Source: Vitis vinifera
Lineage: Eukaryota > Streptophyta > Magnoliopsida > Vitales > Vitaceae
Assembly (NCBI RefSeq): GCF_030704535.1
Contig: NC_081822.1
Span: 5,891,501-5,955,500, forward strand
Length of the DNA stretch: 64,000 nucleotides
Direction of reading: 5' to 3'
The notes under the pieces were generated by a model that saw only the letters and a program-made list of their open reading frames with translations, did not search any database and had not been told where the DNA came from. Position numbers and translations under genes: made by a program. Below, in pieces: positions 3,832 through 47,547 of the stretch (within the stretch, counting starts at the first letter, position 1; each line of letters starts with the position of its first letter).

Positions 3832-6800
3832 ATGAGAAAACCGGAGGCAAAGTTTTCAGGCATGGAGTCAGCGTTTTCAGGTAACTAATTTTTTTTTCTC
3901 ATTTTTTAAAACTTTTTTTTTGGTCTTTTTGTTGGTGGGTTCTGAACAAAGGTGCTGTCTTGCCTTGTTTATGATGCGCTCTTCACAATGCCTGTTTGAT
4001 TGAAGTCGGGTACACATGGGTTTGCTTTTTGTGCTATTTTTTGTGGCTTTATTTTGCTATTTTTAGACCTATTTATTGCTTTGTTGTTGAGAAATGAGAA
4101 TGCATGTGGGGCAGTGTTTGGATGAGAATTATATTTCTGGTTTTTGTGTTTTATCAGGGTTAAAAAAACTGTTCTTTATTTTGTCCTGTGTGTGTGTTGT
4201 GTTGTGTTGCTTTCAGTTTGGGTTGTTTACTTCTGGGTTTTGTTTTGTTCACTTCTTTTATTGTGTTAATATGTTGCTGGGTTCTTCATGAAATCTATTA
4301 GTAAACCTTATATTTTTCTGGGGAACATTGGCATCTTTTGTTGCCCTTAAGACTAGTGAACAGCTAATTAGTAGTGAAATTTTCTGGTCATGTCTCTACC
4401 TTATGTTAATTAGGTTATTGTAGGGGTTCATTTTGTAGGATGGTGTTGGTTTTTGACTGACCCAAGCACATTCCCGGATCATACTTCAAGGGTGTGATTG
4501 TTTAATTGCCAACATTTTTTCATGATTTACATGTGATCTACTTCTGCCAATGGAATTGAGAGGGGTTTGCAATACAATGGCAAGGCAAACCATGATTAAA
4601 AAAGTAGCTTTGGCAATGAAGAAACATATTAAAATCTTTGGGAAAAAATCATTGTAGGATTTTGCAATGACTTATCTTGTTTTATTATGTTACCTAGTTT
4701 CAAAATCAACTAAGAAATTGAATTGCGTGTATGCGTTACAGAAGTCATTGTGGGGTGGACCATTTCTGTAATCAGCAGAGTGCAATGTAGATGTAATCAC
4801 ATCTTCAATCTTCTCTTAATCATGGGCTAAATTCTTAAAAAAATTTGGTGGTGCACTGGTGGTAGCTGCAAGACAGTGGCAATGATGGTGGCCTCTGGGT
4901 AGGTGAAGCTAGTAATAGTTGTAGTGGCGAAGACAGTGACATAATGTTTTAGTTGCACGGTAGTGGTGGTGGTGATGTTAGATGAGAGGCAATGACTATG
5001 GTAGTGATGGCAGCAGTTACATCTAGGTTGTTGATGAAAGAAATCAAAGTGGTGCAATGGTGGTAGTCAGGGCGGTGTCTATAGCTTCAGGTGACAGAAG
5101 AGCCTAAAATAGTGATGATGCCACTGTGGCCCTGGTGGAGTGGAGATGGTGGTGGTTCCAGTTGTATCAATGCAGTGATGATATATTGTCTACTTTGAAC
5201 AACCTATATTTCATAAATGGTTTTGCTAAATTTCAATTAATATTATGAACAGGCCCATGCTCAGGGTGGGGCACTTAGTAATTCAGTTTGGCAATTAGTC
5301 ACTAAGATATAACGAAGGGGTGGAAAAAGAGTGGGGACTTTTATTTATCTGTAATGGCTTGAGAAAATGTGAGTTTCTGGAATTCGGTTCCACTGGGTTA
5401 GTTGCAGGCTCATATTGCTGATCAAGTGAGTTTCATAGTTGATAGAAAGTAATAGTATCTAATTAAAGAATTATGAATGGAAAATTTGCCTTAATGGATG
5501 TGACAAACCTTTTTTTTGGCATGCTTGATTTCATCTACATGTGCTGTTGTTTGAAAATGCATGATTTTCATTTATCAGGTTTTGTACTTGACCCTGAAAA
5601 ATGTAGTCGTCTAAGCTTGGGAGAGAAAAGAGAACTAGTTCATGAAATTGCTCAGTGGTCGAAAGATGCCCCGGAGATTCTTCGTTCATTTACTCGCAGA
5701 GAGCTTCTTGAAATCATCTGTGCTGAAATGGGTAAAGAGAGAAAGTACACTGGATTCACAAAGTTTAGAATGATAGAGCACCTGCTAAAGTTAATTTCTA
5801 AGAAGTCCAAGAACAGAACTGATAACTCTATTGCTTCTTCCCCAGCCAAAACTCAAATTGGATCCAAACGACAGAGAAAGAAAGAAAACCCACTTCAACC
5901 ACTTACTGACCTGGATCATTTTTCCCCAGAGAAATGCAAAGAAGTTAAAACCCTGCTCTGTCAGAACCTTGCATGCAGAGCTAGTTTGAGTCCAGAGGAT
6001 GCTTTTTGCAAGAGATGTTCTTGCTGTATCTGTCATCAGTATGATGATAACAAGGATCCTAGTCTATGGTTGACCTGCAGTTCAGGTTCTCCTAACAAGG
6101 ATGACTCTTGTGGCATGTCATGCCATCTGACATGTGCTCTCAAGCATGAAAGAACTGGCATTACGAAGAATGGCTGTCGTCCAAAGTTGGATGGGGAATT
6201 CTATTGTGCTTCTTGTGGGAAAATTAATGGACTATTGAGGTAATCATCTTTTCCTTTAACACCTTTAAACAGTTTATGTCTCCCCATCATTCTTTCTACA
6301 GAATAGAAAATATGTACCAGACAATAATAATATTTTAACAGGGGCAAGTTGTGTTGGTCCAAAACAAGAGCCAAATGACCCAATTCAATAATGGGTTAGC
6401 TTTTGTGCCCACAAAAAAGGTTTTGGATATTGCTTTTTCAATATGCTAGTTCAACAGATATTATTAATGGTATGCTAAATGCTTACATGGCTTTGTGTCT
6501 TAACGCTGTCCCTTTTATTGAGCATTTTTTTTTGTGTCTATAGAGACCAACTTAAGGTTTCCTTGCATTAGGATTGAGAAATTGGGTAAATTAACCTGCC
6601 ACCCTGAGAAGAAATTTTATGTAATAAATATAATATGAGATCAGTCTTTCAGAATATCTAATGTAATGGTAAGAATGTTTATACAGCAACCAGCCTATCC
6701 TAAACTGACCAAACCAAAACCAAGTTGCAGCCTGTGGTTCAAATTATACTGGTTGGCTTGTCACTAATATTCACTCATTTAGTGAAACAAAATGCTAAAA

Positions 6801-8297
6801 GAATGGTGTGTTAATTGGATGTTTGGCATCCTTCAGAACCTGGAGAAAACAGTTAATGGTTGCCAAGGAGGCTAGAAGAGTAGATGTACTATGTCTGCGT
6901 GTCTTCCTGAGCCACAAGATTCTCAAAGGAACTGAGCAATACAAGGACCTGCAAAAGACTATGGAAACTGCCGTGAAAAGGCTGAAGAATGAAGTGGGGC
7001 CTCTTGATCGAGTGTGCACAAAGATGGCACGTGGGATTGTCAACAGGCTCTCCTGTGGTGCAGAGGTTCAGAAATTGTGCACTTCTGCAGTTGAAGCTTT
7101 TGATTCCATGTTTCCTGACCCTTACCCTGCTGATACAGATCAGAAAGAACAAGCAGGTACCTTTCTTGTTTCTAGAATTTGGTATTTCAACATTTGGATG
7201 AAACAGAGTCCTTAAATGATTCAATATTTGATTTTTCTAGCATTTGGGTGCACAAGTTTTCAAACTAAAAAAAAAAATGATGACCAATAAATTTATGGTC
7301 AGTTTGATTGAATTATTTTAAGTTAGGAAAATAACTTCAGTCCCATAAACAAACTGGAATGGTTTCATCATCCTGCAGTTATGAGGACCTAAATGATGTT
7401 TTTCACTGATGTTTTTATTAATTTACTATGCTTACTCCTGCAGGGATGCAGATACGATTTGAAGAATGTTCCCCAACTTCAGTGGTCATTGTACTAGGAT
7501 ATGAAGACCATTTGTTGGAGGAATTCTTAGGCTGCAGGCTGTGGCATCGGAAGTCTACTATGAAGGATTATCCAGAAAAACCCACTTACATTGTACTGAG
7601 GCCAGAAAAACGATTCCAGGTGACTGATCTCAATCCTTCAACTGAGTACTTGTGTAAGGTTTCCCTGTTCAGCAGCACAAGGGTTTTGGGTGTTTGGGAA
7701 GCCAAATGGGTCACACCCTCATTAAGCAGAAGCTCTGTCTCAGCTTTAGATGATGAACATAGAAGGGGAGAGAATACCTTAATGCTTCAAGAATATTCTC
7801 AGATGGATTCAACGAATTCTAGTGATACTAAATTGGTCTCCTGTGACCACTCTGAGAAGCTTAGATCACTGGATGACATCAACAAGAACAAGAATTCTGG
7901 ATTCCACATACTGCCTCCTCCCATGGAGGCTGTTCCTTTACTGATCCCCTCATCAGTTCCTCCTTCCACACCATCTAAAACTGATAAAATGCATGAAGTT
8001 CCGGGCTTGGGTAGCAAGAAGCAGATCAGAGAGAGTGACTATGAATACTCTGTCAGAGTTATCAAATGGTTAGAATGCCAAGGGCACATAGCTGAAGATT
8101 TTAGAGTGAAATTTCTCACTTGGTTCAGCTTGAAAGCAACAATGCAAGAAAGAAGGGTGGTTAGTGTTTTTGTGGATACTCTGATTGATGACCCGCCAAG
8201 TTTGGCTGAGCAGCTCATCCATTCCTTCATGGACGAGATTTGTTATGACCAGAAATCGGTTTCTAAGCAAGGGTTCTGCGCTAGCCTTTGGCACTGA
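3832..8297 (+). CDS. VIN3: VIN3-like PHD finger / FNIII / VEL-domain protein
   Basis: Four exons (3832-3880, 5579-6239, 6837-7156, 7444-8297) join in frame to 627 codons. An in-frame ATG at 3862 is an alternative start, giving a protein that begins MESAFSG. Visible in order: a conserved N-terminal helical region with [12 protein letters not shown]; a basic stretch (KRQRKK); a Cys/His-rich PHD finger at about residues 160-230 ([10 protein letters not shown] to FYCASCGK); the RRVDVLC and [10 protein letters not shown] blocks; a fibronectin type III domain at about 345-440; and the C-terminal VEL domain at about 543-612. The protein ends in LWH, as I recall for Arabidopsis VIN3. VEL proteins associate with PRC2 and promote H3K27me3 silencing of flowering genes such as FLC. 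The VEL domain mediates head-to-tail polymerisation. Family assignment is very secure. VIN3 versus VIL2/VEL1 orthology is less so. The 1.7-kb first intron follows a very short first coding exon. Confidence 0.93.
4845..5165. repeat. Degenerate GTG/GGT-rich low-complexity tract in VIN3 intron 1
   Basis: About 320 bp inside the first intron is dominated by imperfect GTGGTG, GATGGTG and GTAGTGG units. The opposite strand gives a spurious His/Thr-rich open frame (4827-5057). It looks like a decayed trinucleotide-based minisatellite. I see no coding role. Confidence 0.6.
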
Positions 8298-9751: not shown

Positions 9752-12384
9752 TCATGTACCAGAAGCATCATTCACGGCTTCATTGAATGAGGCAGCCAGG
9801 TATTCTGCAAGGCTTTGTTGAGAACTGGATTCATTTGTAGCTTCTGAAACTCTTGTTTTTTTCATGTTTATAGATTTTGGGAGCCAGGACTTTGGAGAGT
9901 CTGAGGCATTTCCCATCTTCCCTAAAGCTTTTTCTCTGCTCCAAATGACAGGCTTCAAGAACTTCCACGGATCTTCTACCATGGACTTGTTGTAGAACAA
10001 CTCTGGTCGATCCTGTGCAGAGACATGAGCATGAAAACCCAGCCCTCTCCCACGGCCACGCCCTGAACCAGGACTCATGCTGTTACCAAACCAGCCACTC
10101 CTACCTCTTCCAGAATTAGGACTGGAGCTGCCTCCACGTCCAGAAACAGGGCTGGGGCTATTGTTGAACCAGTGACCCCTGCCTCGCCCAGATCTGAAAC
10201 TAGGGCTGCCTACCGGTCTGAAGCCAGGGCTAGGAAAATTACCACCTCTTGGTGAATTAGATGGAACACCATACCTAGGCATGCCATTAGACCCATTCCA
10301 GACTCCAGGAGTTCCTTGATGAGCAGGAAAAGGACTAGCCATTTCTATTGGGCTTCTATAGGGTCCAGAGCTGTGATAGAGACCTTGTGCTTGGTTTATT
10401 CCCTGACCTGGTGAAAAATTGGGTTGGAATGGAGGATTGGGAGAGGGGGTCATTTCACAGTTCCTTGGTCCTGCTGTTAAAAAATCAATAGAAAGGAGGA
10501 AGCAATTCCTTCATTTAGAATCATGGTGCCCATAAACTAATGTATAAAAAAAAGAATTAACTTTCAAGTGGCTAATTAAATTGTAAAACTCTGAACAATA
10601 ACAGATCAATAGCCCAGCTCAAACTATACTTCATGAAGCAATCGTTCCTTTTCATTTAGAAGAAAATAATGAAGCCCTTGATGACTGACTCAAGGCCAAG
10701 GGGTGCAGACGGGGGAGATTCTACTTTGATTCCATATAGCAGCAGGGAATATAAAGGAAATTGTAAGAAAATAATAAGTTTAACCCTTTTATAAAAAGCT
10801 TAAAAATGAGAAAGTCCAACTATATTATCAAACATGCTCTAAAAACAATGGTCCAAAAAACATCTTTCAACAATAGTAATTTTTTCGTTTTTTTCTTTTT
10901 TGGATGAATATCTTTCAACAATAGTAATACCACAGTTATAAAACTAAAATAATAATAATCAATCTGTCTACGTGATTACATGGCTAAAAATGCTATGGCA
11001 TAGTATCAAAATAAATTTTAAAAGAATTTTTGAGACACCAAAAATAAAACTTGTGTATCACATGGACTACCCACAATGTTCATCAAACCATATCCAGAAG
11101 GACTTTCCATGATTAGACCATGTTCATGCTTTTCTATTTCACATTGGATCTGTTTGATGCGTGTACGGTTTTCTTATCCATGTTAACTGTCAACCCAACA
11201 TTAGTCCTTTATATCCGAATAACAATTTCTGCCAAACTTCAATGCAGATGATATCTAAGATAGTAACAAGTCAAATAGTTTCCATAAAATTTTGCAAGCT
11301 TATTTCTCAGAGCATAGATCACAACATATTTTATGATATTTCATGGTCTAAGTAATGTTGATCAGGATTTGGCTGCTAGAGTTTTTAGTTCAAGCCTGAC
11401 CTTATGCTTACTAAGTTCTCAAACCCAAACCAACTCCCAGTAACAAGAACTCCTCCAACCATGGAAAGAGCTAAATTACCCCAAGTTGCAACCCTAGTTT
11501 TGCAACTAAGGATAAAAAAATTTTTGTCTGTAGGGCACCCAAGCAGCGGCTATATTATATCACCAGAAAATTTAGGAAGCACTGATGACACACCAATAGA
11601 TTATGAAAGGGTGCAAAGAAATCCATATAAGAGCTGGAAATAGATTTTATTTTCCACCAGCTAAAATGTGGAAGGTAAGAAAAATAAATTTGAGTTCAGA
11701 AGTTTTTTCTCCAATTTGTTTCCGTTTATAGGCAATGAAGAATTTGATATTGTACAAGTTATTGTATTTTATTTCACTTGTATTTTCCATGGCAGCCCAA
11801 AGGAGAGAAGTTGAGTAAATTTTTATTTTTTTTTGGGGCGTGGGGGGTGGGGGGGTCTTGTTTTGTTCTGATTTTTCTTTTTTAATACTTGCTTTCCACA
11901 TATTTTCAGCAATCTAAAAGAAGCATAAAAATGTGTCACCCAAGCGCAAAATTTGTCACCGGAAAAATAAAAATCATGCAAAGAGAATGCAATGTTTAAA
12001 TTCAACTTAATAAGCACATCGACATTGTCAAATAAAAGTGATTTTTAAAAGAGTTATGTTACCAGATAGAGATGATGACATCCGAGCCATGGTAGCCGTA
12101 TAACCACTATTACTTGAAGGTGTTAAATAATCCTGCTGAATCTGGTTACCGACCTTACTTCTCCTCTTGTTACTGGAGAATGCTGACATAGGGTCTGTGT
12201 AAAAATCAAATCTCGGAGTCACACAAGAGTCCTCCTGCACTGGCAGAGTAGCAGATCCTTCAACTAATGGATTAGAGAGGTAACCAGGCATGGCAGAAGT
12301 ATCAACAGTGTCAGAAACTTTGGTCTGAGCAGCTTCCATTCGCATTGCTTTCAGTCTTTCTCTTCTCTTCTCTGATTCCTCCAT
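9752..12384 (-). CDS. SIC: SICKLE, proline/glycine-rich miRNA biogenesis and splicing factor
   Basis: Two coding exons on the minus strand (12384-12063 and 10470-9752) join to 346 codons. The start MEESEKRRERLKAMRMEAAQ is the family's N-terminal signature. FDFYTDPMSAFSS follows. The second exon carries repeated SGRGR / SPxSGRG elements (about residues 165-240), the conserved MVEDPWKFLKPVIW block, WLPKSI, and the C-terminal QQSLAEYLAASFNEA. These match Arabidopsis SICKLE (At4g24500), which is needed for accumulation of a subset of miRNAs, co-localises with HYL1 in nuclear foci, and affects turnover of excised introns and splicing of clock transcripts. A 5'-leader intron is likely. The second exon's acceptor is a TAACAGCAG tandem site, so a version with one extra Ala is possible. 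The low-complexity middle is normal for the family. Confidence 0.93.
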
Positions 12385-13192
12385 TTAACCTGAGGATAAC
12401 AACAACAGCCCACCGTGCACCAAACTAGTAATTATAATTATAGAGAATATCATCATCATCCACCAGTTCAAAATCCCAAAACCCATCTCATCTCAGCAAG
12501 CTCAACAGCTCACCCATCCCCCCCTCAACCAGTCCTTCTCCATAGTTTTGAAGACATGATTTTTTTCTTAATGCAAGGAATTTCTAATACAAAATAAAAA
12601 TAAGGGAATAAATCTAGAAAGCTAAAATCAAGCACCAAGATGATGAAACCCAACTCTTTTATTGTACAAATAACAATAGCAGTGCATTTTAGAATTGCAC
12701 AAACTTCATAAAAACAACCTCCAATACCCAAAACTGACTAGAATTAACCCATGTGAGAGGGAAAATTTAAGAAGCAAGCCGTCGCAATATGATCTATAAA
12801 AGAGAGAGTGGTAGATATTGGTCCCTGAACACTTGGAAAAAGAGTGAAGGATTTGCCCAATATTCAGAGAAGATGGATACCTTTAAAAAACAGAAGATAT
12901 TGGTTTTATGCACAGTTAGTTTGCCGAGAAAACTAGGGAAACAAAAAAACAAAAAGCAAATTCTGATTCTTTCAGAGTTTGTGTACTTTCACCCAAAATT
13001 TTGGCAGCAACTTGCAACGCAGGAACGAAGGAAAATAAAATAAATAAATAAATAAGAGATGATAAATAAAATTCAGCTCTGCGTCTTCGGTTGTTTCAAT
13101 TTGATTCAATAGTAACCCACTACCTTTTTTTCCCACGTTTTCTGAGCAACCAAACAGAGGGTGAATTTTATAATTCAAATAAGAAACTTACC
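12385..13192 (-). other. SIC: SICKLE 5' leader with an 802-bp intron
   Basis: On the minus strand a strong donor (TCTCTG|GTAAGT, exon end at 13192) and an acceptor (TTATCCTCAG at 12395-12390, six bases before the ATG) define an intron at 12390-13191. The upstream non-coding exon, roughly 13192-13290, includes the typical plant-leader string AAACCCTAAT. This is inferred from splice signals only; no transcript was available. No other gene is seen here. Confidence 0.6.
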
Positions 13193-13485
13193 AGAGATTA
13201 TAATGAAGATCGAGAATTTTCGGGCTCCTGAAAAAATTAGGGTTTGTGTAAGGAGGGAGAGCGAGAGGCGACCAACCTTCGTTGAACTGATGGGATATTA
13301 TTTGTCCTTTTTCAAAAAAGCAATAATATTTTTGAAAATCTAAAATCCTGACCTAAAGCTGCTAGCATTTCTTGCTTTACAACCCTTACCTCTTTTTAAA
13401 ATAAATAAATAAATAACTGATTGGGTTTTTTTTTTAAATTTAAAAATTATATATTTCTATATAAAAATATAAACTTTTATATACA

Positions 13486-13489
<4 letters not shown>

Positions 13490-13570
<81 letters not shown>
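13490..13570. repeat. (TA)n(GA)n compound microsatellite
   Basis: About 30 perfect TA dinucleotides run directly into nine GA dinucleotides. The tract lies about 200 bp upstream of the likely SICKLE leader. It should be highly variable in length between individuals. Confidence 0.95.
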
Positions 13571-16183
13571 TTTAATCGTGCTGATAAAAAAATTTAGGTA
13601 TAAAATCATAATTATTACTTTTTTTTTTTTAATATAAATCCAATATTCTTATCTTGTATAAAATTTATTGGCGGTTTTTATTTTAAAACAAAATATATAT
13701 ATATAATTTTTTTTTTATTTTGAAAATAAAAAAAGAAATAATCACATCTAAATAAACAATAAATATATAAGATTAATTTTCTACTATTCTCTCCACATCT
13801 CCTTACCTTCTTATTTCTTCTTTTTTTTTTCCCCTTTTTTTTCTTAATATTAAAAATGTGTTTTGATAACTTGAGCATATGAAAATGAGTTTTGATAGCT
13901 TGATAAATTGAGCATACAAAAGTGAGTTTAAAATATTAATTTCAATCAAATTAGAGACTAATAGTCCAATTGAAAGTGAATCTAAGAAGTCCTTTTAATT
14001 TAAAAAATGTTTAGTACATTTAGCAAGGATTATGAAACCCTTTCAGCTTACAAAGTTTTTTTTTTTTTTTAAATATATTAGATAATTGAGTTTAATATAG
14101 ATTACCCCTCCACCTATTGCTTGTTTTACTCATTGCATGCTCCTATGTTTAAAATCCAACAATTTGTCCTCTAAACTTCTTAAAAACCTAAAATACCGAT
14201 CTACCTTCACTTTGTTAAATCGTGTGCTTAGCATAACATTTTCGTTCAATCAAACTAATACCGTATAACAAAAATGGTACAATGGTCTTTAAAAACCTTT
14301 AATGGCGAATTATTGGATTTTAAACTCGATGTATAATGTGTAAAATACATAAGGGGTAAAGTATATTAAACTCTAGATAAAATTTAGAAAAAGACTTTCT
14401 AAAGTTTTGAAATATCACTTATTATGTTAAAAAATTACTTATATAAAACAATTTCACCAAACATTTCAAGTAAAAATACTACTTATAAGTTATAACCATT
14501 TACAGGCGGTAATTTCTTAAAATAAAAATCATATTTAGATTATTACATTTCAAAATATCCTCATGTCCAGCAATTACATCTCAATTTCAATTGAGAATAA
14601 AATGATTATTGAAAACTTGTTACATCTAATAGCAGTAATTTATTAAAATAAAACTGCATTCATCAAATTTAATATTATAATATTTCAAAGCATAATTTGA
14701 TTTATAATATTTCAAAACAAATCACATCAATTACTTTAGCTTATTTGGTAACTATTTTCGAATTATTTTTTTTGATAATATATTTTTTTAAGTTAATTTT
14801 TAATGTTTTATAAAACAAAAATCTGTTGAAAATGTAAAATATTTTAAACATATTTTTAATATTTTTAAAGATAAATTTTATGCATACTATTTTATTTTTA
14901 ATCATTCTACATGATTATATAATTATTAAAAACAAATTTTAAAAATAAGTGGAAAAAATATTATCTGAAAACATCATATTTTTTATTTTTAAAAACAGAA
15001 AATAGAAAGCAGTTTTCTGATTGCATAATATCTTTATGCTTTTTGTTTTAAATAATATAAAACTATTATTGATAATAGTCGCCAAACGGTGTTTTAAAAA
15101 CTATTTTATAATTGTTTTAAAAAACAGTTGTATGTTATTTATAACAAAATAATAGGAAAATATGTTTGACAATTAAATACCAAATTTTGTTTTAAAAAAT
15201 AGAAAACAAGATATTTTAAAATAACATTTTTTATTTTTTTTACTTGTTTTTTGAGAATTATCTCAAAAAATAATTATACAAATATGTAAAAATAATTAAA
15301 AATAAAACGCTATATATAAAATTTGTTTTTAAAATATATTAAAATCAAGTTAAAAACATTTAAGGTTTCAATAAACTTTTGTTCTGACACTGTTTACAAA
15401 AATCATTTTTCATAATTATTTTCAAAAATAGTTATCAAATAAGATTTTTATCATTTATTTATTTTTATACAAATTTTATTTAAGGTAACATTTGGTTCCT
15501 GAAAAATAATAAAGAAAAAAGAAAGTTACAGAATGATTTTATCATATTTGATTTTATTATGAAAAATATGAAAAGAAAGTCAAATATAATAAAAATTATT
15601 AGAAAAATTATATATTTTTAAAATTTGTAATATTTATAAAGTAGAGTTAAATAAGTAAAGAAAAGTTTGAACCTAAAAAAAAAACCTTATTAACTTTATT
15701 TATTTTTAATTTATTTTTATTTCATTTTACTTATTCGTTTTCTATATTTTATTTTATTTATTTTTTATTTTCTAAAGAATTGAGAAAATTACCATTTTAC
15801 TAACACTGGGCTGGAGGCTTGCATCCAGGAACAGAGTTTCATTGAGCCATAAAAACCCCTGGGTTTCGAGGTACATGGCCCAGTAAAAGATGGGAGCGTG
15901 CGGCTGTGATTCCCCACCTCCATTGTGGCCGGTGGTGGTGAGATCTTCCATCAAAATACAGCCAAAACAATTCCCCACTACTACTTCCACTGCTGGACTC
16001 TTTCGCTTCTGAGCTTCCAGATTACTGTTTCCATTCATATAAAAAATCTCTCGTCTTTTGGTTTATTGAAACGCTTCTTCTCAATCCACAGCGTATTGAG
16101 CGGAGTGGCGATTTCCCACCGATTCATTTTCTCTCGCCATTTCTCTGCAACCAAACAGCGTCCTTTCAGTACAACCGCCAAAA
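13571..16183. other. Divergent intergenic region between SICKLE and HYL1, including the HYL1 leader
   Basis: The stretch is AT-rich and non-coding to about 15775, including one copy of a dispersed AT-rich repeat (separate entry). From about 15780 base composition becomes balanced. The part from roughly 15950 is probably the HYL1 promoter-proximal region and 5' UTR, with pyrimidine-rich blocks. Small open frames here on either strand show no recognisable domains. Confidence 0.55.
15045..15450. repeat. AT-rich MITE-like dispersed repeat, copy 1
   Basis: It shares ordered modules with the copies at 55.6, 56.4 and 57.8 kb: a run close to AATTATACAAATATGTAAA, then AAAATAAAACnnnATATAAAATTT, then TTTTTAAAATATATTAAAA, ending in a 'caaat...tttt-g-tct' block with runs of TTTTAAAAA. 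Its borders are approximate. It has no coding capacity. Confidence 0.45.
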
Positions 16184-19100
16184 ATGTCCAGCAATGATGG
16201 TTTCGCAGGTTTCGCTTTTCTCTTTTCTTTTTTTCTTTTTCACCTGTACCTTGTAATGTGATTTTTTTATTATTATTTTTGTTAATGGCATTCAGAACGG
16301 CCTGTTCATCCCCTAATTTTATTGTGTTTTTTGCATTCGTTGTTTTCAAGCATCGGGATTGGATTGTTTGGTGGAATGGAAAGAGCTCGGTTTGGTTGGA
16401 GAGGAAATGTGAGAAAAGAGAAGGGAATTTTGAAAGTTGGATTTATTTTTCTCTATCTGAGTACTAGTAGAGCGAAATTTCTACTCAGTTGAGCCCAATT
16501 CAGCCTTTTGGCTTAGTTTGAAATGTGTTTTTTTTTTCTAATAAAATTAATTTCTTCATATTGAACGGGGTTCAGAATCTCATTTTCCTTTGTCTCCATT
16601 GCCCTCTAACCAATCGAAGGATTCATTTCTTTTTATGCTCTGCCTTAGTTTTCTCCCTGTGCATGCCTATTTCGTAATGATCTATTTGTCTATCTCTTCT
16701 TTCATAACATTTCTATGCCTCTGAACCGAACTGATCGATTCCGTAGAATTCTTGAATACCTTTCATAATTGGATTAACCACTTCCTATTTCCTTCTATCA
16801 AAGAAAAGCCATTTATTTTTCCTATCTAAGAAAAAGAAACTAAAATAGAAAGGAAAGTTGTTCTCAAACTTTTGTACAGGGTTTTTATACGGAATTTTCC
16901 ACCAATACCTTAATAACCCTAAATCTGCCACAATTTTTGATGCATGATCACTATTATTGACAATGGGAAATCCATCCTAACAGTAAAGCATCTATCTCAA
17001 CTGTCAACAAAGAAAACACTGGTTGACCTAAATAGGGGAAGGCTCAAACAGGGACTTCTGGTTTATTGCCAAAGGGTGCTGCCTCTAAGCTCAACGTGGA
17101 GGGGATGAGTAATTGTTACATTTGTTTTCTTAGCTAGTTAACTTCAATCCATTGCATCTCAAGGAATTGTGGTTTGCTCACCGGGTGGAAGTTTCAGTGT
17201 TTCACAAAACACCTGCATAGGATACATGTAGAAATTACCTGTTTCCAACAAGTTAGGGTGGCTTGTATTTGTTCCTTCTAGTTAAGTGCTTTTCACATGT
17301 ATTCTATTTTGGTTGTCTATACTCAGATTTGTAAATTAGTCAGTATGTTGATTGGGTTCTCTCGAAATGCATGAGTAAATTTTACACGATCTATATCCAC
17401 ATGTTAAGGGTGTTCCAAATTTGAATCGCCTCATTTTATTTTCTATAGTATTTTGTGCAACTCTGCAAAGGTAACAGAGGGGGTCATTACTTGAAGATGG
17501 TAGCTATTATCACAAGTGATAGTGAAAACTCGAGATGATGGCACTTAAGAAATTTTAAAGTTGATCCTAATCCACTGCATCTAGTGATGGAATCAGCTCA
17601 TCATTAATGGCTCTGTTATAATTGATGATTTTGTAGTTTTCGATACTATGCTAATCACAATGAGTCATTGAGTACCCTTGTGACAACTAGATAGTGTTGT
17701 GGTTCCTTTCCTTTGGCACCACAACTCTTGATATTTAGACATTATTCAGATCATTTCGGTTGATGAATCTAGTCCCTAAAGAATTTTGGGTAATGTTCAA
17801 AATCTGCAGCAATGAAGGGAGAAGTAGCAACATTCATTACCTGTAGAAAATTTGTTGCCTCAATATGCAATGAAGCTTCTGAAAACTCCAACCACTAATT
17901 TAAATTAGATGATCTACAGGAAATGATAAGTTTCAATGTTATGCAATTATAGATCTACAGGAAATTAGGAGTTAAACTCATTAAATCCCTTATTTGTATG
18001 GATTAACTGAGATATTTACTAAATTTTTTATTGAAGTTGAGATTATTTTTTGATGATTCATTTACTCATATTTATTTACATTATCTCATATGTATTTACA
18101 TATGTCAGGTGTTTCAAATTGCTATGTATTCAAAAGCCGATTACAAGAGTATGCACAAAAAGTGGGACTTCCGACGCCTTTATACGATACCATCAAGGAA
18201 GGTCCTCCCCATGTGCCTTCCTTTAAGTCCACAGTGATAGTGAATGATGTCAGGTATGATTCTCTACCTGGATTTTCCAATCGCAAGGCAGCAGAGCAGT
18301 CAGCTGCTGAAGTTGCTCTTGTGGAATTAGCTAAATCTGGGAACATGAAGGAATGCATTTCTCAACCTGTGGTGAGTTCATTTTGTCTTTTAGAGAATGT
18401 TGTTGAACTTTCATTTATTGTTAGTCTTTTAAAGATCTGTGGTTGAACTTTCTTTTGTGGTTAGTTTTGACACCTTTCACTTCCATTTGATGTTGTTGTT
18501 ATTTGTTTATCATAGTACTGTAGTTTTTACATATTCAATTTCTTTTCAGATATTATTATATTAGAAGCTCAACTTTTCTTTTCTCCCACCCACCAGCCAG
18601 CCCAGGCCTACCTCCACCCCCAATTATCTCTCTGTGAACACATTATTATTATCATTTTTATAAGGTCTTGTCTCCCATGAATATTAGATATCTATTCTAT
18701 CAAAAAAAATAATAATAATTATTAGATGTCTGCTTATGTGAGAACACGAGCCTTTTTTTTTTTTTTTAAAGTCAAGGCAATCCCACTCACATGTATGAAG
18801 AAGATATAGAAAAGAGGAAGTTGAAAGCAAACACAAATGACACAAGCTGTGAACTAGATCACATGATCTCGGTTATCACTTGTGATTCCTCTTCTAACTT
18901 TCAGTCCACTTAAAAACAAACAACCTTTTTTTTTTTCCCCTTTTCTCCTTTGTGTTTATCCATACCCCTTATCAAGATACTAGCATACCTCCCTTTCCAT
19001 CACCTAATGTTGTTGAAGTGTGTGAGCTTCCATAATGATTCCTTTTGGATCCAGGAAAGGTTTATTGGAAGAAGTGTTGTTTAGCAATCATCACCTCACA

Positions 19101-22100
19101 TGAACTCCTCTAACACAACACATGTGGTTCTTAATGTTTCTAGAAAGAATTCAAATGGATTTTGAGATCTGATTCTTCTTTTTCATGACTTTTGAGGGCG
19201 ATAAAACAACATTAATGGTGATTTGTAGAAAACTGTGTGAACATGTTTTGAACACACGACACACCACAGTTGATCAGAGGTTTTTTTATCAAGTAGTAAT
19301 AGTAGTTGGACATGTGATGCACCTCAATTAGGGTTGCAATTTAGGCAGCTTAAAAGGCTAACCTCATGTCAAACCCACGATCAACATGTCCAACCAATGC
19401 CAACCCACACTAGGTGTGTGGGCAACACGATTTTCCATGGGTTCTCTGCGGGTTATTAAATAAAATAATTGTTTTAAAGTCAAATCTATTCAAATCATAT
19501 TACAAAATAAAAGGCTAAAAGTTAAATGTCGCAAAATCTTAAAATATGTCCGTTTGTTATTGATTTTACATAAAGACAACCCAAAAACTCAAATTTCAAC
19601 ATTCCAAAATACTTTAACAATTAAACAAAAAAGATAAACCCATTACTTTGATAAAATTAAAAATGATAAACCCTAGCCAAGATAATAAAAAAGTAAGAAA
19701 TGTTAAGGTTTATTCCTTGTCCTTTTTATATTTTTCATATTTTAAATAAAATTACTGAAATATAATTTAAAAATAATAAATAAATAATAATGTGTAGGTT
19801 TGGGTTTTGGCGGATTGCCCAAACCTTCAACCCATGCCAAACCTAATATTTTCAGGGCAATATTTTTCTAGCCCAAGCCCATTGTTATCAAAGGCGATGA
19901 TTGCCTGGGTCGCCTAGGCCATCGGGCTAGGCAGGGTAGATAAAAGTCGCCTTTTGAAGACCTAGGCAAGGCGACTTTAAAGAGGCAATGCCTAGGCAAT
20001 CACCTTGGGATAAGACACAAGGCATAGAGGCGGTCTCCTTTGACCATGAATTAAGATTAAACATACTTAGATTATAATTTCATTCAATCTAACATTGGAT
20101 TAAACAAAGTCTAAGATAAAATATTATATTATCAATCATAGAGATAATAAGATGGAGGTTTATCGATCTAGTCTTGATGGGAGTAATGACAATTTTAATT
20201 TCAATAATGACTATGATGGTGATGCCTAAAGCTTCTCTAGAATGTTCAATCTCTTATTTTGTTTTTTATTTTATTTTTTAGATGTTTGAAAACACTTTCA
20301 ATAATTATTACTATTTTGTTAATTTTATAAGACATTGTGAGCGATGAAAAATTAATAGTGTTGATTGTTGAAGACAATACTTATATTGGTTGAATATCGA
20401 ATAGGTAAATATATGTATATTTTTTATCGCCTTACTATAGTTAGGCTATCGCCTTGTTTTTCACCTTTCGCCTTAGGCTAAAAGGAGTCTTATTGCCTTG
20501 ATATCGCCTTTTGCTTTTGACAACACTACCCAAGCTTGACCTAAACCCATTCAAATCTTGCCCACACCAACCCAAACCATGGGTTGGGTGGGTTGAACCT
20601 ATCCAAGTTGCTGCCCTAATGACAATGTTTCCCATTATATTGGATACTATATTGCTTATTCAAGAGCAATTTTTCATATCAAAAGAGTGATTAAGCATCT
20701 TGGCTTGATGAGTGCTGTTTGAAGGTTGTTACATTCCCGGTTGAAATTGGCTGTGATTACACCTTGAACATGGAATCTCTCATATCCCAATCCCAACCCC
20801 TTGTTTGAAGCTTGTTGCATTCCAGGTTAAAATTTACCCTTATTGCACTTTGAACTTGGAATCTCCCATATCACTATCCTACCCCTTTCGCTTGAGCCAG
20901 TTACTAGTTTATCACCACTATTTTGTCTTCTTAAAAGTTGTTCTCTTGCTTCTAATTATTCTTATGTTATCCTATATTTACTATTCTGATAATTAATCTT
21001 TTTGATTTCATTTTGATTCAACTCATCCATTATTTGTTTTTTATTCTATAAAATGGAGCTTGTGGCTATATCTTCTAGAAAACATTGTCCCTGTTCCTGT
21101 ATTGGTGTATTTTGTCTATTTTCTAGGAATATAATCTAGCATCATGCATGGTGTTTGTCTTCTCATGCTGAGGTAAATGTCTTTGCTTATTGATTTCTAT
21201 GGTCCATTCATGTGTGGTTGTGGACGCTTCTGGTTGTAACATGAACACATGTTTTTAGGTAGTTTGTAATTGTTTATTGATAGTCCCTTTACAAAGGGCC
21301 AGAGGCCTTCAATTTGTATAAATAGGGTTTTTGCAGTTGTTTAGGAGACAATACATGTTTTTTTGCATCTTGTTAAAAGGAAAAATCCCCCATTTTTACA
21401 AACCCTTATTAGACAGTCAACAAAAATGAGTGAAAGCATAAACATTAGGTAGATTGTCAATTCATATGATTTACCTTACCCTAGGTAAACTTAATACTAT
21501 TCCCTCTTTTCACTAAACCGGCACTTACAGTTTTCATGAACATCAGATCTGGATCATCAAGAGACTACTTCCCACTCTTTTGTTCTTTCTCCTTACTTTC
21601 AGTAAACAAAATCAGGATTTTGGAGTTACTTGACACTTCAGAATAATTTGGAATTTGGAAATAAACTTGGAAAATGTTGCGAATAGTTCAGGAAGTTGGG
21701 GTGGTGATGATTTGCTTGGGTTGGGATGGGGAGTAGGCTTTGGTTTGGTTTGATTGTGGAGGTGCTATTCAGGGATGGTGTTTGTTTTGTTTGGTATTGT
21801 TGAATAGTATTCTGTGAAAGAAAATGTAGCATGTTGCATTTGGGTCGAGATATAAGTGAATGACTTTTTACTTGGTTGATTTGGTTCTACATTGGCAAAA
21901 TTTTTTGTTTATGTATAAAATGTTTATGCTTTTAAGAAGGTTTTAAAATTCAAAGCAATTGCTCCAATGTTTGCTATCATTCTATTATTCCTTTATACTT
22001 TATTCCTTCAGAAGTTCCTATTGGGCACTGATCATCCCATCCTATATGATTAAATTCCTCTATACAACTCTACCCATTGTGCTTTTATTTTTATTTTTAT

Positions 22101-24068
22101 TCCAATTCACTTCTATTCTAAAGGCAGAAAAATAGTTTGTGAAACATTCAGAGTATTTACAAAAAACTTTTGCCGCATTCAGCATGTGAAATGAGGTTGA
22201 TAAGTAGATTAAAGAAGGCAAAGTTGATATGAGGGCCTTAATCCTCAAACAAGAGGTGTTCTTTCATATGCAAGTTCCTTCTCAAATTCTATCAGATATG
22301 GGGAGGAAAAAATTAACAATACAGAAGGATTGGCCAATTGGTTTTTCATTTTTATTTTAGTTGCCTAGAAATTCTTAGTACGGTGCTTGTTTATTGTACA
22401 ATGCCTCTAGTTCAACTCTTACGAGTGCCAAGAGGCCTTCTTGCTTTTGCATGGAACAGCCTCTACCCCCACCTAAACACATTCACACATCTGCAGAATA
22501 TAGTTGAGAGATACCTTTTATGCTGCTGTGCTGTGTTGTTCAATTCTTTTGCAGCTTTCTTTTGTTTTTCCACATTCTTGTTTTCTTCCTTATGTTTTCC
22601 TCCTTTCCTCTGATGTTTTTTTCTTCTAGCAGTTCCATAGATGATATACATGTGTAAGGTGGTGTGCAAATATGTGTTATACATGTGTGGATCTTCATTT
22701 GGAACTGACTTTGGAAACATAGACTCGGAAATTTTATCATACACCTGAATACAGATATATACTATAGAAAATGAAATGGCATGACTCATATGGTGGAAAA
22801 TGCATTTTTTTTTCCTAGATCATTTTCCTGAAAGTTATCTTGATATTCATGACTGATATAATTCATATATTGCATTACTAGCTAGACGGTATGTGATCGC
22901 TTCCATCATCACCAGCTTACAGGTCTATCCAACAGAATTGCACTCCTTTTAGTGGAGTCCTTTTTTTATTTAGATACGGTCTCTTTTTATGAATCTGATG
23001 TTTTTCCAATTGCAATCATACCCACTAGTATTGCTTGTTGCTTAGTGAAAATATTCTTAGTTATTGTTATTGTATATTTTTCGTTTCTTATTTGTAGCCA
23101 CATGCAGTTTTCAGTTGATTTATATCTGACTTCTTTTTTGGCGTGTGTTTCAGCATGAAACAGGCTTATGCAAAAACCTGCTCCAAGAATATGCACAGAA
23201 GATGAACTATGCAATTCCAATGTATGTATGCCAGAAAGATGAGTCACCGGGTAGAGCAGCCTCTTTTTCTTGTACAGTTGAGATTGGGGGGATTCGTTAT
23301 ATTGGAGCTGCAGCAAGAACAAAGAAAGAAGCAGAGATCAAAGCTGCTAGAACTGCTCTCTTAGCAATCCGGGCAAATACAGATGGAGTTGGTGAGAAAT
23401 CAATTGGCAACACTCAGTTGACAGTAATACCAGGCAAAAAGAAGGGACCAGAGTCGGGTAATCCTGATGAGCCTGCAAAAGCTCTCAAACCAAAGAAAGC
23501 TCGTTTCAAAACCAAGGGGCTTAGGAAGAAATTCCCTGGAAACAAGGTAGGCAATGATCAAGTTGAAGATACAAGGGGTATGGAGGTTGATATAGATAAT
23601 CAGGTGGGATCAGAACTGCTTCAGACCGATGCATCTATGGTCCAAGTAGCTGAATCTGGACTGTTGTCCATGGAATCAAAGGAGAATTTTGAAGAGGAGA
23701 AATCAATTGTAAACCAAAATGGGGGGGACAAAACTGTTGCTGAAGGTGACCCGATTCCTGATATCATTGGTAATTGTCAAAATGGGCAAGCAACAGCTTC
23801 AGACATAAAAAAAACCGACCATAAAGCACCTCCTGAGCTGGGAATCTCTTCCATGTCCCCTGCAGAAGTTTTAGTCAGTGTGGCCATGGAGGTGAACAAC
23901 GTTTCTGAAGCTGGACTGGTGGATTCAGCAATAATGAACAGTTCCAACGAGGATCAGACAGAGGCTGCAAGTGCCGCAAAGGATTTCAAGCAAATGGGTG
24001 CAAATGAAGACGATTTCAAGAGCAACGGAGCAAGCGCCCTGGGCATTGTGGCCTCAAATCTAGGGTGA
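16184..24068 (+). CDS. HYL1: HYL1/DRB1, double-stranded RNA-binding partner of DCL1
   Basis: Three exons (16184-16208, 18109-18371, 23154-24068) join to 400 codons. The first encodes only eight residues plus one base (MSSNDGFA-G). Two dsRNA-binding domains follow: dsRBD1 at about residues 15-84 (CYVFKSRLQEYAQK, then NRKAAEQSAAEVAL) and dsRBD2 at about 101-170 (CKNLLQEYAQKMNYAIP, then RTKKEAEIKAARTALLAI). A basic stretch near 208-230 (KPKKARFKTKGLRKKF) is a likely nuclear localisation signal. The remaining tail is acidic and Ser/Ala-rich. The GVSNCYVFKSRLQEYAQK start and the HETGLCKNLL junction mark this as HYL1 rather than DRB2 to DRB5. HYL1 binds pri-miRNA with DCL1 and SERRATE in nuclear dicing bodies and sets cleavage accuracy. 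The Arabidopsis C-terminal 28-residue repeats are absent here. Intron 2 (4.8 kb) contains transposon-derived DNA. Confidence 0.94.
19327..20620. mobile_element. Outer inverted-repeat element in HYL1 intron 2
   Basis: The left end reads ATTAGGGTTGCAA and the reverse complement of the right end reads ATTAGGGCAGCAA, giving 11 matches in 13. Just inside are further complementary blocks rich in CCAACCCA / TGGGTTGG. I could not find a convincing target-site duplication, so the borders are tentative. No transposase-like frame is visible. A second element sits inside it (separate entry). Confidence 0.45.
19881..20527. mobile_element. Inner inverted-repeat element nested in the outer one
   Basis: The left end is ATTGTTATCAAAGGCGAT. 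The right end, read in reverse complement, is AGTGTTGTCAAAAGCAAAAG followed by GCGAT. Both ends then carry several GGCGA/CCTAGGC motifs. Flanks GCCCAAGCCC (19871-19880) and ACCCAAGCTT (20528-20537) agree at 7 of 10 bases and look like a decayed target duplication. The size (647 bp) and lack of an open frame suggest a non-autonomous element. Confidence 0.5.
20716..20887. repeat. Two diverged 86-bp tandem copies in HYL1 intron 2
   Basis: The unit beginning TGTTTGAAGGTTGTTACATT recurs 86 bp later as TGTTTGAAGCTTGTTGCATT. The copies stay aligned through TTGAAC-TGGAATCTC and ATATC...ACCCC. Divergence is moderate. Confidence 0.75.
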
Positions 24069-25647: not shown

Positions 25648-28600
25648 ATGCACGGACGACCTCGCAAAGCCCCGAAACCCGAAGACGCAGCAGCTTCAGC
25701 GGCCAAAGCTGAAAAGCTACGCGCTCTTCAATCTCAGCTCCTTCACAATCATCACAATCAGATGTATACATTTTCTTTCTTTCCATTTCCGTTCTTTTTT
25801 TCTCTTGTTTTCTTTCCTAATCCCTTGATCCAAACACTCTTCTATTTACACTCCTTTTTGTTTGTTTATTTTTTGTTTTTTAATTTAAAATTCTTTTAGA
25901 TATACGAAGGAAGCCCTAGAGATCTCCGCCAAGCTACTTGAAGCCAATCCCGAATCATACACAGCTTGGAATTATAGGAAGCTCGCTGTTGAACATAATC
26001 TGAGTCACTCCGAGTCTGATCCGGATACAGTCAAATCAATTTTCAGCGAGGAACTTAGAGTCGTACGTTCCTTTCAGTTCTCTAATAGGGAAAGCATCTG
26101 ATTTTTATGTTTTTATCTTTTCCTTCTTTCTCCTCATCGTGTTTGGTTTCTGAGAAAATTTAGAAAAGGAAAAGCAATTAAAGCAAAATTGAACATGAGA
26201 TTCCAATTTTGGTTATGGTTTTTTGACCTTATCATCATGGCAGGCAACCAGAAGCAATGCTCTGGTTGGCTGTTGACAAAAGGTTAGGAAAGGAAGGAAG
26301 TGAATGACGCTTAAAATCGAAATAAAATGAAGCCTATTATTTTTATTTCTTATTCTGATTTTATTTTCCCTAGTTTTTTTGGCTACAGAATGTTTTAGAG
26401 TTTGAGAATGTATTTTGAATTCAGTGAATGCATTCATGTAGGTAGAGAACTCATTGAAGCAGAATTTTAAGTCTTATGGAGCGTGGCACCATCGTAAATG
26501 GGTTCTGAGCAAGGGACATTCATCAGTAGATCATGAATTGCAGCTACTGGATCGGTTTCAGAGGGCTGATTCTCGGAATTTCCATGCCTGGAATTATCGT
26601 CGGTGATGACCTCTTTTGCCTTTATATATATATATATAATGGAGGAATGTATTTTTTAAGTTGTGTTGTTCATTGTTTCAGATTTATTGCGGCCTTGAAG
26701 GGCATACCTGATGAGGAGGAGTTGAAGTATACAACCAAATTAATAGAGACAAATTTCAGCAATTATTCTGCATGGCACAATCGTAGGTACATGATATTTT
26801 TAATATTTTGTTTTAATCTTTTTATATTTGATTTTGGTTACCTGTAGTTGGATATGATGAGCAACTAAAATTCCATCCATCTTAATTTATTGGTGAGTTT
26901 ATGAAAAGTAGTCTTCTTATATTTGTTAACTTGGGATTATGGATTATGAACATTAAAAACATTTTTCCTTCAATATTTGGAGAAACTTTTATTGGTTTGC
27001 TCATGGTTTCTGAAATCCGAAATCATTTTTTGCATACTGCTGTAGTGATGGTATGACTAAATAGCTCTATTGTCTTTGCCAGATTAAAGTTATTTTTCAT
27101 GCATGTTGCTCTTCTGAGGGTATGAGTTGAACAAATGGTTGTGTTGTTTGTACTATCGATGGTTACTTTGATCCATGACTTAAGCCCTCATGGAAGAATT
27201 AAGAGATAGCTTGAAATGATAATAAATTATGGATGTGCTTGCCACTCATTTTATTGTGTTATGATAAGACCATTGACTTTATATAATTTGATTATAGAAT
27301 TGAGAGTGTGCATGCACTTGCATGTGGAAATGCCATATCCTCATGTGCATTTATATCTGTAATACTGTCTGATCCAGTACTTAAGTAATTGTACATTGAT
27401 CTTGTGGCTGAATATGGTATTGAGTTGCTATGATCATATAACAATATGTTTAATGTCCCCAGTTGTGGGCAACAATATCATACAATTCAACATTGCATTT
27501 ATTTGATCTTCCATTTGCATCTGCTTTAGGAGTAGACAATAAAATGTATGTCCCCCTCTATTTCGCAGTGGCTGCTTTTATTTCTTTCACTCAAACTCTT
27601 CTAATATTATGTGACAGCATTTAAAACCTCCAAACATATTTCGGTTACACGTTCTGCTCTATGATGTATATATCCCCCTTTCTGGACACATTACTTTCAA
27701 GACTTATCTTATTAAGGGATTTGTGCAGTGTACTTTTGTCCCATTTGCTGCAAAACAAGGTCAAAGGGTTTTTCCCAAAGGAAAAGGTTTTGGTAGAAGA
27801 GTATGAATTTGTACATCAAGCTCTTTTCACTGATCCAGATGATCAAAGTGGTTGGTTTTATCATCTTTGGCTTCTTGATCAAACTGTTAAACCAGAAACT
27901 CCTCTGCTGGTTTCTACTTGGCCTGCTCATGGTTCTGATATCATTGTATCAGCAGAAGGCTGCCTGGATGGCCGTGCTTTGTCTCCATTCACAAGTTTCC
28001 ACTCTGATGCAGGAACATTTCCTCTCATTCTTTACTTCAATGAAGCTGTTGAAGGTGTAAACTCATCTACTGTAACTGTTAAATCAGTGTTTACTGAAAA
28101 TAAAGATCTTGTTTGGAAACCACTTGCAACAAGTAAGTCCTGTGCTGCCCAAGCATGGGTAACACATCTAAATGTTCCTGATGTAAAGCTCCATCCTTCA
28201 ACAGCTTATCCCATAGAAGTTAATCTTGGAGACTCTCAGGGAATAATTTCTTTGAGTGGTTCTCACTGTAGCCATCCTTCTCGGTTTGCATTTACAGTGT
28301 GTGTACAGCCTCTCAGTTCAAAACATGCTGAAAGGCAGAGTGTAGAGATGATTTTGTGGAGAGATGTAAATTTTCATTTTTATGATGCACATGTCCAAGA
28401 ATCAAGCCCAATTGCTTATTTTGATCGACTAAGCATTAAAAAGGACCATGAGCCAGCAGCTTCTAAGTGGCATGCAAAGACTCTAGTTAATGAGATAGCC
28501 CTTGTTCGGCAACTGTTGTCAGAGATAGACTGGTAAACCTGATTTGTTTGATGGACAACTTAGAACTTTCATAATGTGCTATTTTCCTAAATGTGATGTC

Positions 28601-30621
28601 TTCTTGTTTCCTTTGTATTACTATTACAGTAAAATTGGAAAGCTTACTCTTGCAAGACTGCTGATGGCTCATGATGCAATGGTGTCATACATGGCTCCAC
28701 ATTCTCACAAGAAGGTCCATTCTGAAGAAGTTCTACAACTATATAGTGACCTAATGGAGTTGGACCCAATGCATTCCCAATACTATAAGGAGGCACAAAG
28801 CTTAGTCTTATTGCAGCAGGTGACACTTTCTTCTCTTCATTATTATCTGTTTTTGAAGTCAGTGTTGAAGGTGGAGTTGCCTGGGCATGTGGTTTTCTTC
28901 AGCATTTGAGTTTACATAGAGACAGCTGTATTTTGGACCTTTACATCGGTTTATATAATTCTCTTTCATATCCAAAATGCAAATGCTGCCTTACTCAGGC
29001 CTTAAAATCTAATGGGGAAGAAAATTTATTTCGCTCATTAACCTATTTCATCTCTTTGCTATTTCTAGAGGGTGTGCTATTACTAAGATTAATTTAATGG
29101 ACTGATACAGAGTCCGTCAAACCCAATAAATATGCTTATTGATTTTATATTTATATCTTGTTGAAGAATTCCTACTAAGAACAAATCGTTGACTGCATGC
29201 CTAAAAATGGTAAGGAATTTGGTTCATGCATGTGGTATGTAACAGTTTTTTTTAAGATCTCCTCCTAACTTATTGTTCCAAGGTATAATATTGATTGCTT
29301 CATTCAGTGTAGATTTCTGATATTTATCTGATTCCATAGGTGACATCCAATAGGGAATCCTTGCTGAAACACTGCTGCCACCATAGGGTCTCGACCTCTT
29401 CAAGTGTTGGTAATTCTGTCTGTTTACGACTAAATAATTTGTCTTTATCAAGGATCGGATGTGTTGAGCAATTATTGTGGGTCCAAATGCTTGACCTCAG
29501 CCACAATGAACTTCGATCAATTGATGGTAAACTACTATACTGCTGATATTATGAATCTTTTACACATTTAATTGGTGAGCTTTGATAGATTCCTTTGATC
29601 TAGATTGCCTGTATCTTTTCCTACATGTACATTTTTCCTTAACCTTTTTTTCTTTTTCTTTTCTTTTTTTTTTTCACAAGAATTTTTGTCAGCAATTGTC
29701 ATATTATTGAAAGGTTTCCAAAATGAAAGTATATATTAATCTTGTGTTTTACATGCACATTCAGTTTGGTTTCTGAAAATCTCTATAAACTTTGTGTTTT
29801 GACTCTTATTCAAAGAGCTGTTCAAACTAAAATAGCATAATAAACAGTGAAAAGCATACTTGGATCCTATCACATTTTAATTAATTAATGGTTGCTCTTG
29901 CAAGCATTGTGTGCCCATCTGGAAAGTGGAAACTTGTAACTAGACTTGGATTCTTAAATATATGAAACATTTGCAAAATTTTAACAATCCTATAAATATG
30001 GGGGCTCCTTTTTCTGGTTTTTCAAATGTTGAAAAAGTATCAAAATAGAAATCACTTGAATAACATAACATCCAATATTGGCTGCTATCAGGTCATTACA
30101 TGGGTTCTTCTAGTTGCGTGAAACTGGTTCAAGTCAAAGCACTTGAGTGCTTCATTTAGCATCTTAGCCATTACATTTCCATTATTCTTGTATGGAAAGA
30201 AATTAAGTGCTGAGGTTAGTGTTTTTGAACAGGATTGGAGGCTATGCAGCTTCTCTCTTTCCTGAACCTGAGTCATAATAAGCTTAGCAGTTTTACTGCT
30301 TTGGAGCCTTTGAGACTGCTGAAGTTATTAAAGGTGTTGGACATCTCATACAATGAGATAGGTGCCCACCCCGTTGACACAAGAAGGTATTTGTGCTCTT
30401 CTCCTTTGTCTCATACGGTAGGAAGTGATTGGAATTTCAATGAATTTGTACCTGACGATGCCAAAGTGACAAACTACTGGGAGGCTTTTGCGATTTTTAG
30501 AGGCTTCAATTTGACGCAATTGGATATTGTGGGGAATGCAATCACTGATGAAAAATTCAAGTCATTTCTGATTAAGGTTCTCCCTACACTAAAGTGGGTA
30601 GACGGTGAAGAATTGCATTAA
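25648..30621 (+). CDS. RGTA1: Rab geranylgeranyltransferase alpha subunit
   Basis: Eight exons (25648-25763, 25900-26062, 26442-26602, 26682-26786, 27729-28532, 28630-28819, 29340-29526, 30233-30621) join in frame to 704 codons. The start MHGRPRKAPKPEDAAA is the family's usual N-terminus. Prenyltransferase alpha repeats appear as YTAWNYRK, YGAWHHRKW, FHAWNYRR, YSAWHNRS and SGWFYHLWLL (residues about 45-235). An immunoglobulin-like insert region (about 240-380) follows, then a helical segment and a C-terminal leucine-rich repeat part (about 540-690; MLDLSHNELRSIDG, FLNLSHNKLS, VLDISYNEIG). With the beta subunit and Rab escort protein it adds two geranylgeranyl groups to Rab GTPases for membrane targeting. 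The long C-terminal extension separates it from farnesyltransferase and GGTase-I alpha (PFTA/FNTA). RGTA1 versus RGTA2 is inferred mainly from neighbourhood. Confidence 0.93.
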
Positions 30622-47170: not shown

Positions 47171-47547
47171 AAGCATGATAAAGACTTACTATTATTTGGG
47201 TCAAAAAATAATAATCATCACCCACTACAGGGGCAGACTACTGGGCATATATTTATCTTTTCATTTGGTTGGTGAGCTTTAATAAATATTAAATATTAAT
47301 TAATATTAAAAAAAAAAAAAAAAAAAAACTGGATGCATGTCACGTGACACATACAATATTAGGAAGGCTAATTGGACAATTTTCAGATTATATTATTTAT
47401 GATCAATCAGATACGGGTCAGCAAGATGTGTCATACCTTCAACATCTGAACATAGACATGGATGATTTGTTAGTTATAAAGTAGTTACGTTAATTTAATG
47501 GAGATTCAAAGCAGATGACTTAATATGTGGCTGAAGTTCCACTCTAG
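47171..47547. repeat. Diverged direct repeat, copy 1
   Basis: This segment and 49141-49477 share a colinear series of blocks: CATGATAAAGA, TTTAGGTCAAAAAATA-like, CATTTGGTTGGTGA / CATTGGGTTGGTGA, ACAGACATGGATGA-like, GCAGATGACT and ATGTGGC-GAAGTT. It contains a 20-nt poly-A run. It looks like a segmental duplication, not a named transposon. Confidence 0.6.

Follow-up and report, generated by a model that had tools for sequence, protein, structure and literature searches.

The putative SICKLE gene and the HYL1 (DRB1) gene, both encoding microRNA (miRNA) factors, lie head to head within a 64,000-nucleotide stretch of Vitis vinifera DNA (contig NC_081822.1, positions 5,891,501 to 5,955,500 of the forward strand), hereafter referred to as the window. 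An earlier reading of the letters alone (the sequence-only reading) had named the two genes, placed them at 9752..24068 and described them as divergent; these positions are exactly those of the two stop codons, and the identities and layout are upheld by intact frames, by structure matches of HYL1 and by the position of SICKLE. That reading further suggested that the pair might mark an ancestral neighbourhood under linked regulation that was split in Brassicaceae. Here, the gene models, the gene order in other plants and the spacer between the two genes are described, and we argue that the two genes are probably neighbors through retained gene order.

Gene Models and Identities of SICKLE and HYL1

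The coding frames of both genes are intact. The SICKLE gene, on the minus strand, comprises two coding exons and encodes a product of 347 or 346 amino acids in an uninterrupted frame, the acceptor site being ambiguous by 3 nucleotides (nt), and HYL1, on the plus strand, comprises three coding exons with GT/AG borders that encode 400 amino acids (Table 1). The second HYL1 intron (18372-23153) extends over 4.8 kilobases (kb) and contains a tandem repeat of two 86-nt copies (20716-20887). The two ATG codons are separated by 3,799 base pairs (bp); the spacing of about 3 kb proposed initially is roughly right when measured from the putative SICKLE leader near 13.2-13.3 kb, but not from ATG to ATG.

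HYL1 contains two stretches matching the double-stranded RNA (dsRNA)-binding domain in Pfam (dsrm, E 2.4e-34), and its top matches among solved structures are those of Arabidopsis HYL1 itself (2l2n, 142.6 bits; 2l2m, 119.8 bits), followed by DRB4 (2n3f, 80.8), DRB3 (9jmu, 52.1), and DRB2 (9jvc, 44.6). As a HYL1/DRB1 protein, it would be expected to partner DCL1 in miRNA processing. The only Pfam match of SICKLE is to MPLKIP (E 4.9e-06), which at 27.1 bits falls just below the 28.9-bit cut-off, and no solved structure matches its product (best E 0.62). The SICKLE assignment is thus putative, being based on gene order, on this sub-threshold match and on motifs attributed to the Arabidopsis protein. 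These features of SICKLE would allow a misidentification, with another DRB gene or another proline-rich gene standing in place of HYL1 or SICKLE. We consider this highly improbable, since HYL1 is the best match by a wide margin among the solved DRB proteins, and the place and strand of SICKLE beside the Rab geranylgeranyl transferase alpha gene RGTA1 agree with those in the published Brassica rapa table described below.

Gene Order in Other Plants

Six genes were recognized within the first 45 kb of the window. A VIN3-like gene is followed by SICKLE (-), HYL1 (+), RGTA1 (+), a TPR gene (-), and a Raf-like kinase gene (-). This order was compared with published gene tables. On A01 of B. rapa, the counterparts of At4g24480 (+), RGTA1 At4g24490 (-), SICKLE At4g24500 (+), and CER2 At4g24510 (+) are listed in this order in a mapping study (PMC10368883 Table 1). 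Read in reverse, SICKLE (-), RGTA1 (+), and the kinase (-) match the window in both order and strand, minus HYL1 and the TPR gene, which intervene here. At4g24480 is given as AtRAF6 in a grape paper (PMC4511077) and as a Raf-like kinase in a cotton paper (PMC13029884). In the latter, a study of salt tolerance, successive genes of upland cotton D06 correspond to At4g24480, At1g58225, At4g24490, At5g67150, At1g09700 (HYL1), and At1g58215 (Table A1); one gene separates HYL1 from RGTA1 and three separate it from RAF6, indicating that HYL1 stands close to RGTA1 and RAF6 in cotton as well. Over the listed stretch (GH_D06G0266-0309), 21 of the 44 successive genes match four Arabidopsis intervals (At1g09, At1g58-59, At4g24, and At5g49), whereas 0.4 would be expected from their span, and the order within each interval is monotone with at most one discordant pair (permutation P of 0.0007, 0.018, 0.084, and 0.33, respectively). 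A region of an outside genome therefore interleaves the genes of split Arabidopsis regions in nearly collinear order, as would be expected of a fractionated block.

Arabidopsis HYL1 (At1g09700) and SICKLE (At4g24500) reside on different chromosomes, as the sequence-only reading had noted, and both are in use while apart. In Marchantia, the two genes (Mp7g08450 and Mp5g17530, respectively) are also on different chromosomes (PMC9291395 Table 2). Immediate adjacency was not found in cotton D06, B. rapa, Arabidopsis, or Marchantia, a thin sample of a few published gene tables, and the cotton and Marchantia arrangements leave it shown in this window only. Adjacency confined to one genus was the refuting outcome named in the sequence-only reading. 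A broccoli table was not counted as independent evidence; it lists At4g24480, then a row labeled At4g24490 and described as a hydroxyproline-rich glycoprotein, then CER2, and was taken to contain a merged RGTA1/SICKLE model. In a willow table, AGO4 is listed alongside a DRB1 gene on 15W, and the available parts of a mango paper give no gene order. A bean Ur-11 paper was set aside because SICKLE there denotes only a read-trimming program. No description of SICKLE-HYL1 adjacency was found in the literature searched, which was partly covered, most matches being judged by their listing.

Probable Retention of an Old Chromosome Block

We regard it as probable that SICKLE and HYL1 are neighbors because the ancestral gene order of one old chromosome block has been retained; confidence is held at this level because the adjacency is missing from any second genome. 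An old block with the order RAF6-RGTA1-HYL1-SICKLE would have been kept in this plant, and the two genes would adjoin here because both were members of it. In the Arabidopsis line, the block would have been present in duplicated copies that each lost different genes, leaving HYL1 on chromosome 1 (At1g09700) and SICKLE, RGTA1, and RAF6 on chromosome 4 (At4g24500, At4g24490, and At4g24480). HYL1 would not have jumped. Gene order was observed directly in this window and in the published tables for B. rapa and cotton D06, and from it we infer that SICKLE stood beside HYL1 in the ancestor and that the two were split by duplication and loss rather than by a move of HYL1. The suggestion that an old neighborhood was split in Brassicaceae is thereby supported, because cotton D06 keeps HYL1 near RGTA1 and RAF6, and the B. 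rapa table keeps SICKLE beside them without HYL1.

Several points weigh against retention of the block. In the proposed ancestral order, the link between HYL1 and SICKLE is drawn from this window and B. rapa, and in the cotton table, which stops there (GH_D06G0309), the gene beyond HYL1 is At1g58215-like and not SICKLE; cotton SICKLE may lie further along or in another duplicate. In the B. rapa table, At4g24480 carries a different product name, that of an oligosaccharyl transferase subunit (PMC10368883). Moreover, the kinase, RGTA1, and SICKLE are putative orthologs of the Arabidopsis genes. The four Arabidopsis intervals were picked after looking, and At4g24 and At5g49, with four and three genes, are each non-significant alone. 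The mutual duplication of the four intervals is presumed.

The immediate adjacency seen here alone, together with the At1g58215-like gene beyond HYL1 in the cotton table, would also be accounted for by a recent chance rearrangement in the lineage of this plant, in which SICKLE moved beside HYL1 or the reverse. Such a move would have needed to strike that very RGTA1-RAF6 place, since both genes stand within the collinear neighborhood, HYL1 as in the cotton table and SICKLE as in the B. rapa table with strands agreeing, and it is considered unlikely.

The role of chance was evaluated with 69 distinct Arabidopsis miRNA-biogenesis loci (those available from PMC9291395 Table 2) in a genome of 26,000 genes, a round figure. 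For these loci, 0.18 adjacent pairs and 0.045 head-to-head pairs are expected per genome. The pair was picked once the sequence had been read, and any of many further pathways might have been chosen instead; for a single named pathway such a pair is uncommon, but across all pathways it is not remarkable. Of the other neighbors, the VIN3-like, RGTA, and Raf kinase genes were checked against the 69-locus list and are absent from it. Clustering of the 69 loci was tested with a uniform model on locus numbers at four distances. No pairs occur within 10 or 50 units and three occur within 100 (P 0.21); nine pairs occur within 250 units, against 4.0 expected (P 0.024), but a single nominally low P among the four distances tried was not accepted as evidence for clustering of miRNA genes. 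Separately, the nine pairs include HYL1-CDC5 (At1g09700 and At1g09770) and SEAP1-SICKLE (At4g24270 and At4g24500); with CDC5 near HYL1 and SEAP1 near SICKLE, four miRNA factors fall in two intervals that are joined by cotton D06.

The Spacer and the Question of Linked Control

The 2,481 bp spacer core contains AT-rich repeats besides its (TA)n run and has a guanine-plus-cytosine (GC) content of 18.5%, compared with 46% over the 405 bp leading to the HYL1 ATG and 36% over the 916 bp that precede the SICKLE ATG. From this compositional contrast, the spacer looks like two separate promoter sides, and SICKLE and HYL1 would each have their own.

A stretch common to the two 5′ sides scores 14.5, above all 40 of 40 shuffled pairs (shuffle maximum 11.5), and the exact 11-mer TGTTTGGTTGC has two sites in the window, both at these 5′ sides, with 0.04 expected. 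Both copies of the shared stretch lie on one DNA strand, sense to SICKLE and antisense to HYL1, and comparison of the 5′ sides in mirror orientation is unremarkable, with 30 of 40 shuffles reaching the observed score. The 19-nt pattern CTGTTTGGTTGCNGAGAAA has seven sites in the window at three or fewer mismatches (0.08 expected); it was built from the first two, and only the remaining five are independent. These five looser copies (2-3 mismatches) lie at other places, two of which fall within the RGTA gene and the kinase gene. Thus, the shared motif is taken as a recurrent element and not as a mark of the SICKLE-HYL1 pair, though the exact 11-mer is unique to it. The CTGTTTGGTTGCNGAGAAA pattern may recur in plant first introns and leaders.

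The divergent orientation, the shared 5′ stretch, and the 11-mer confined to the two 5′ sides would fit a shared divergent control region that co-regulates SICKLE and HYL1, with the pair kept by selection as a functional unit. The same-strand placement of the stretch, the null mirror comparison, and the looser copies elsewhere argue against this, as do the long ATG-to-ATG distance and the low-GC core; furthermore, the pairing is absent in the cotton D06 and Marchantia tables, and the two genes are separated in Arabidopsis and Brassica. A functional unit of this kind is therefore judged very unlikely. We give the same low credence to its fuller form, a divergent pair ancestral to eudicots under partly shared chromatin control that would balance lariat clearance against dicing of primary miRNAs, with linkage lost in Brassicaceae and expression coupled wherever the pair was kept. 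The linked regulation proposed in the sequence-only reading is not supported, given the long AT-rich spacer, the other gene adjoining HYL1 in cotton D06, and the separate chromosomes in Marchantia and Arabidopsis. Under retention of the old block, we infer no shared control of the two genes. Their functional link would act in trans, SICKLE helping DBR1 to clear intron lariats that otherwise tie up the dicing complex of HYL1, and physical linkage of the genes would consequently not be needed.

SICKLE and a Possible Link to TTDN1

A commentary describes SICKLE as affecting both splicing and the production of miRNAs and as binding DBR1, the debranching enzyme, to promote intron-lariat breakdown; it is called plant-specific there (PMC10315293) and domain-free in a review. 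According to the sequence-only reading, SICKLE co-localizes with HYL1 in nuclear foci in Arabidopsis. Despite these descriptions, exon 2 of SICKLE (9752-10473) carries the near-threshold match to the MPLKIP/TTDN1 family. In humans, TTDN1 binds Dbr1 directly and stimulates it (PMC10470207). The binding of SICKLE to DBR1 and of TTDN1 to Dbr1, together with the MPLKIP match, suggests that SICKLE and TTDN1 may be counterparts. The available parts of two human TTDN1 papers contain no plant comparison to SICKLE, and literature on SICKLE, lariats, and TTDN1 yielded none naming both proteins among the matches listed. A domain database presumably already groups SICKLE with TTDN1.

Neighboring Genes and the Rest of the Window

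Three exons of the RGTA1-like gene carry PPTA repeats, of which two score above the cut-off and one just below it, and the best solved match of this gene is a type-2 alpha subunit (44 bits, versus 31 for farnesyltransferase). The solved structure closest to the Raf-like kinase is CTR1, over 98 residues, and from its position the kinase is likely the RAF6 member. The coding span of the kinase gene is 9,416 bp on the minus strand. Grape VviMAPKKK15 is listed on chromosome 18 with 9,664 bp on the minus strand (PMC4511077 Table 1), and the two resemble each other in length and strand. The region 46000-64000 is AT-rich, with GC content down to 18.6%, and no gene was recognized there; three reading frames scanned in it gave no Pfam match above the cut-off. 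Rfam gave no match in the window at gathering score.

Table 1. Features of the window, with coordinates counted from its first letter.
Feature	Coordinates	Strand	Basis
VIN3-like gene, main recognized exons; tail to tail with SICKLE	5467..8297	+	PHD_Oberon 1.9e-28, VIN3_C 6.5e-18
SICKLE (putative) coding exon 2 with stop codon at 9752	9752..10473	-	Frame, splice borders; MPLKIP-like stretch with DPW motif
SICKLE (putative) coding exon 1, ATG at 12384	12063..12384	-	Frame, splice borders
Candidate SICKLE 5′ leader exon, rough limits	13190..13290	-	Judged by eye: leader-like sequence followed by GTAAGT on the minus strand
Spacer core, 18.5% GC, with (TA)n run	13300..15780		Composition, repeats
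HYL1 coding exon 1 with ATG at 16184	16184..16208	+	Frame, splice borders
HYL1 coding exon 2, first dsRNA-binding domain	18109..18371	+	Frame, domain and structure matches
HYL1 coding exon 3: second dsRNA-binding domain, basic stretch, C-terminal part, stop at 24068	23154..24068	+	Frame, domain and structure matches
Rab geranylgeranyl transferase alpha gene (RGTA1-like), first gene past HYL1	25648..30621	+	ATG 25648; PPTA repeats, structure match, LRR matches
TPR-repeat reading frame	32522..33211	-	TPR_1 2.3e-09
Raf-like kinase gene, likely RAF6/At4g24480 counterpart	35257..44672	-	EDR1_CTR1 domain 1.8e-30, kinase matches, C-terminal frame and stop at 35257
CTGTTTGGTTGCNGAGAAA sites at SICKLE/HYL1 5′ sides	13139-13157, 16140-16158	-	Pattern-defining pair
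CTGTTTGGTTGCNGAGAAA other sites	26139-26157, 41993-42011, 12913-12931, 16388-16406, 59166-59184	+	Three or fewer mismatches

Comparison With Known Systems

The SICKLE-HYL1 pair is regarded as a case of ordinary conserved gene order, and its closest likeness is to fractionation. Cotton D06 interleaves the genes of Arabidopsis At1g09, At1g58-59, At4g24, and At5g49 near-collinearly, and HYL1 and SICKLE belong to two of these intervals; the case differs in that SICKLE is missing from the cotton genes tabulated, and only this window places it beside HYL1. In Arabidopsis, the loci of the two genes appear to be remnants of one old block, which offers a positional landmark for assigning these factors in other plants.

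The head-to-head layout recalls bidirectional-promoter pairs, which usually lie less than about 1 kb apart. The SICKLE and HYL1 ATGs, 3.8 kb apart around an AT-rich core of about 2.5 kb, exceed this distance. In the B. rapa table, RGTA1 faces SICKLE head to head at a distance of 0.9 kb. As adjoining genes of one process, SICKLE and HYL1 also resemble plant biosynthetic gene clusters, but they are two genes only and form no metabolic route. Co-expression, if true, would make them an unusual non-metabolic gene pair for plants; the pair illustrates that a shared pathway together with adjacency need not imply shared control.

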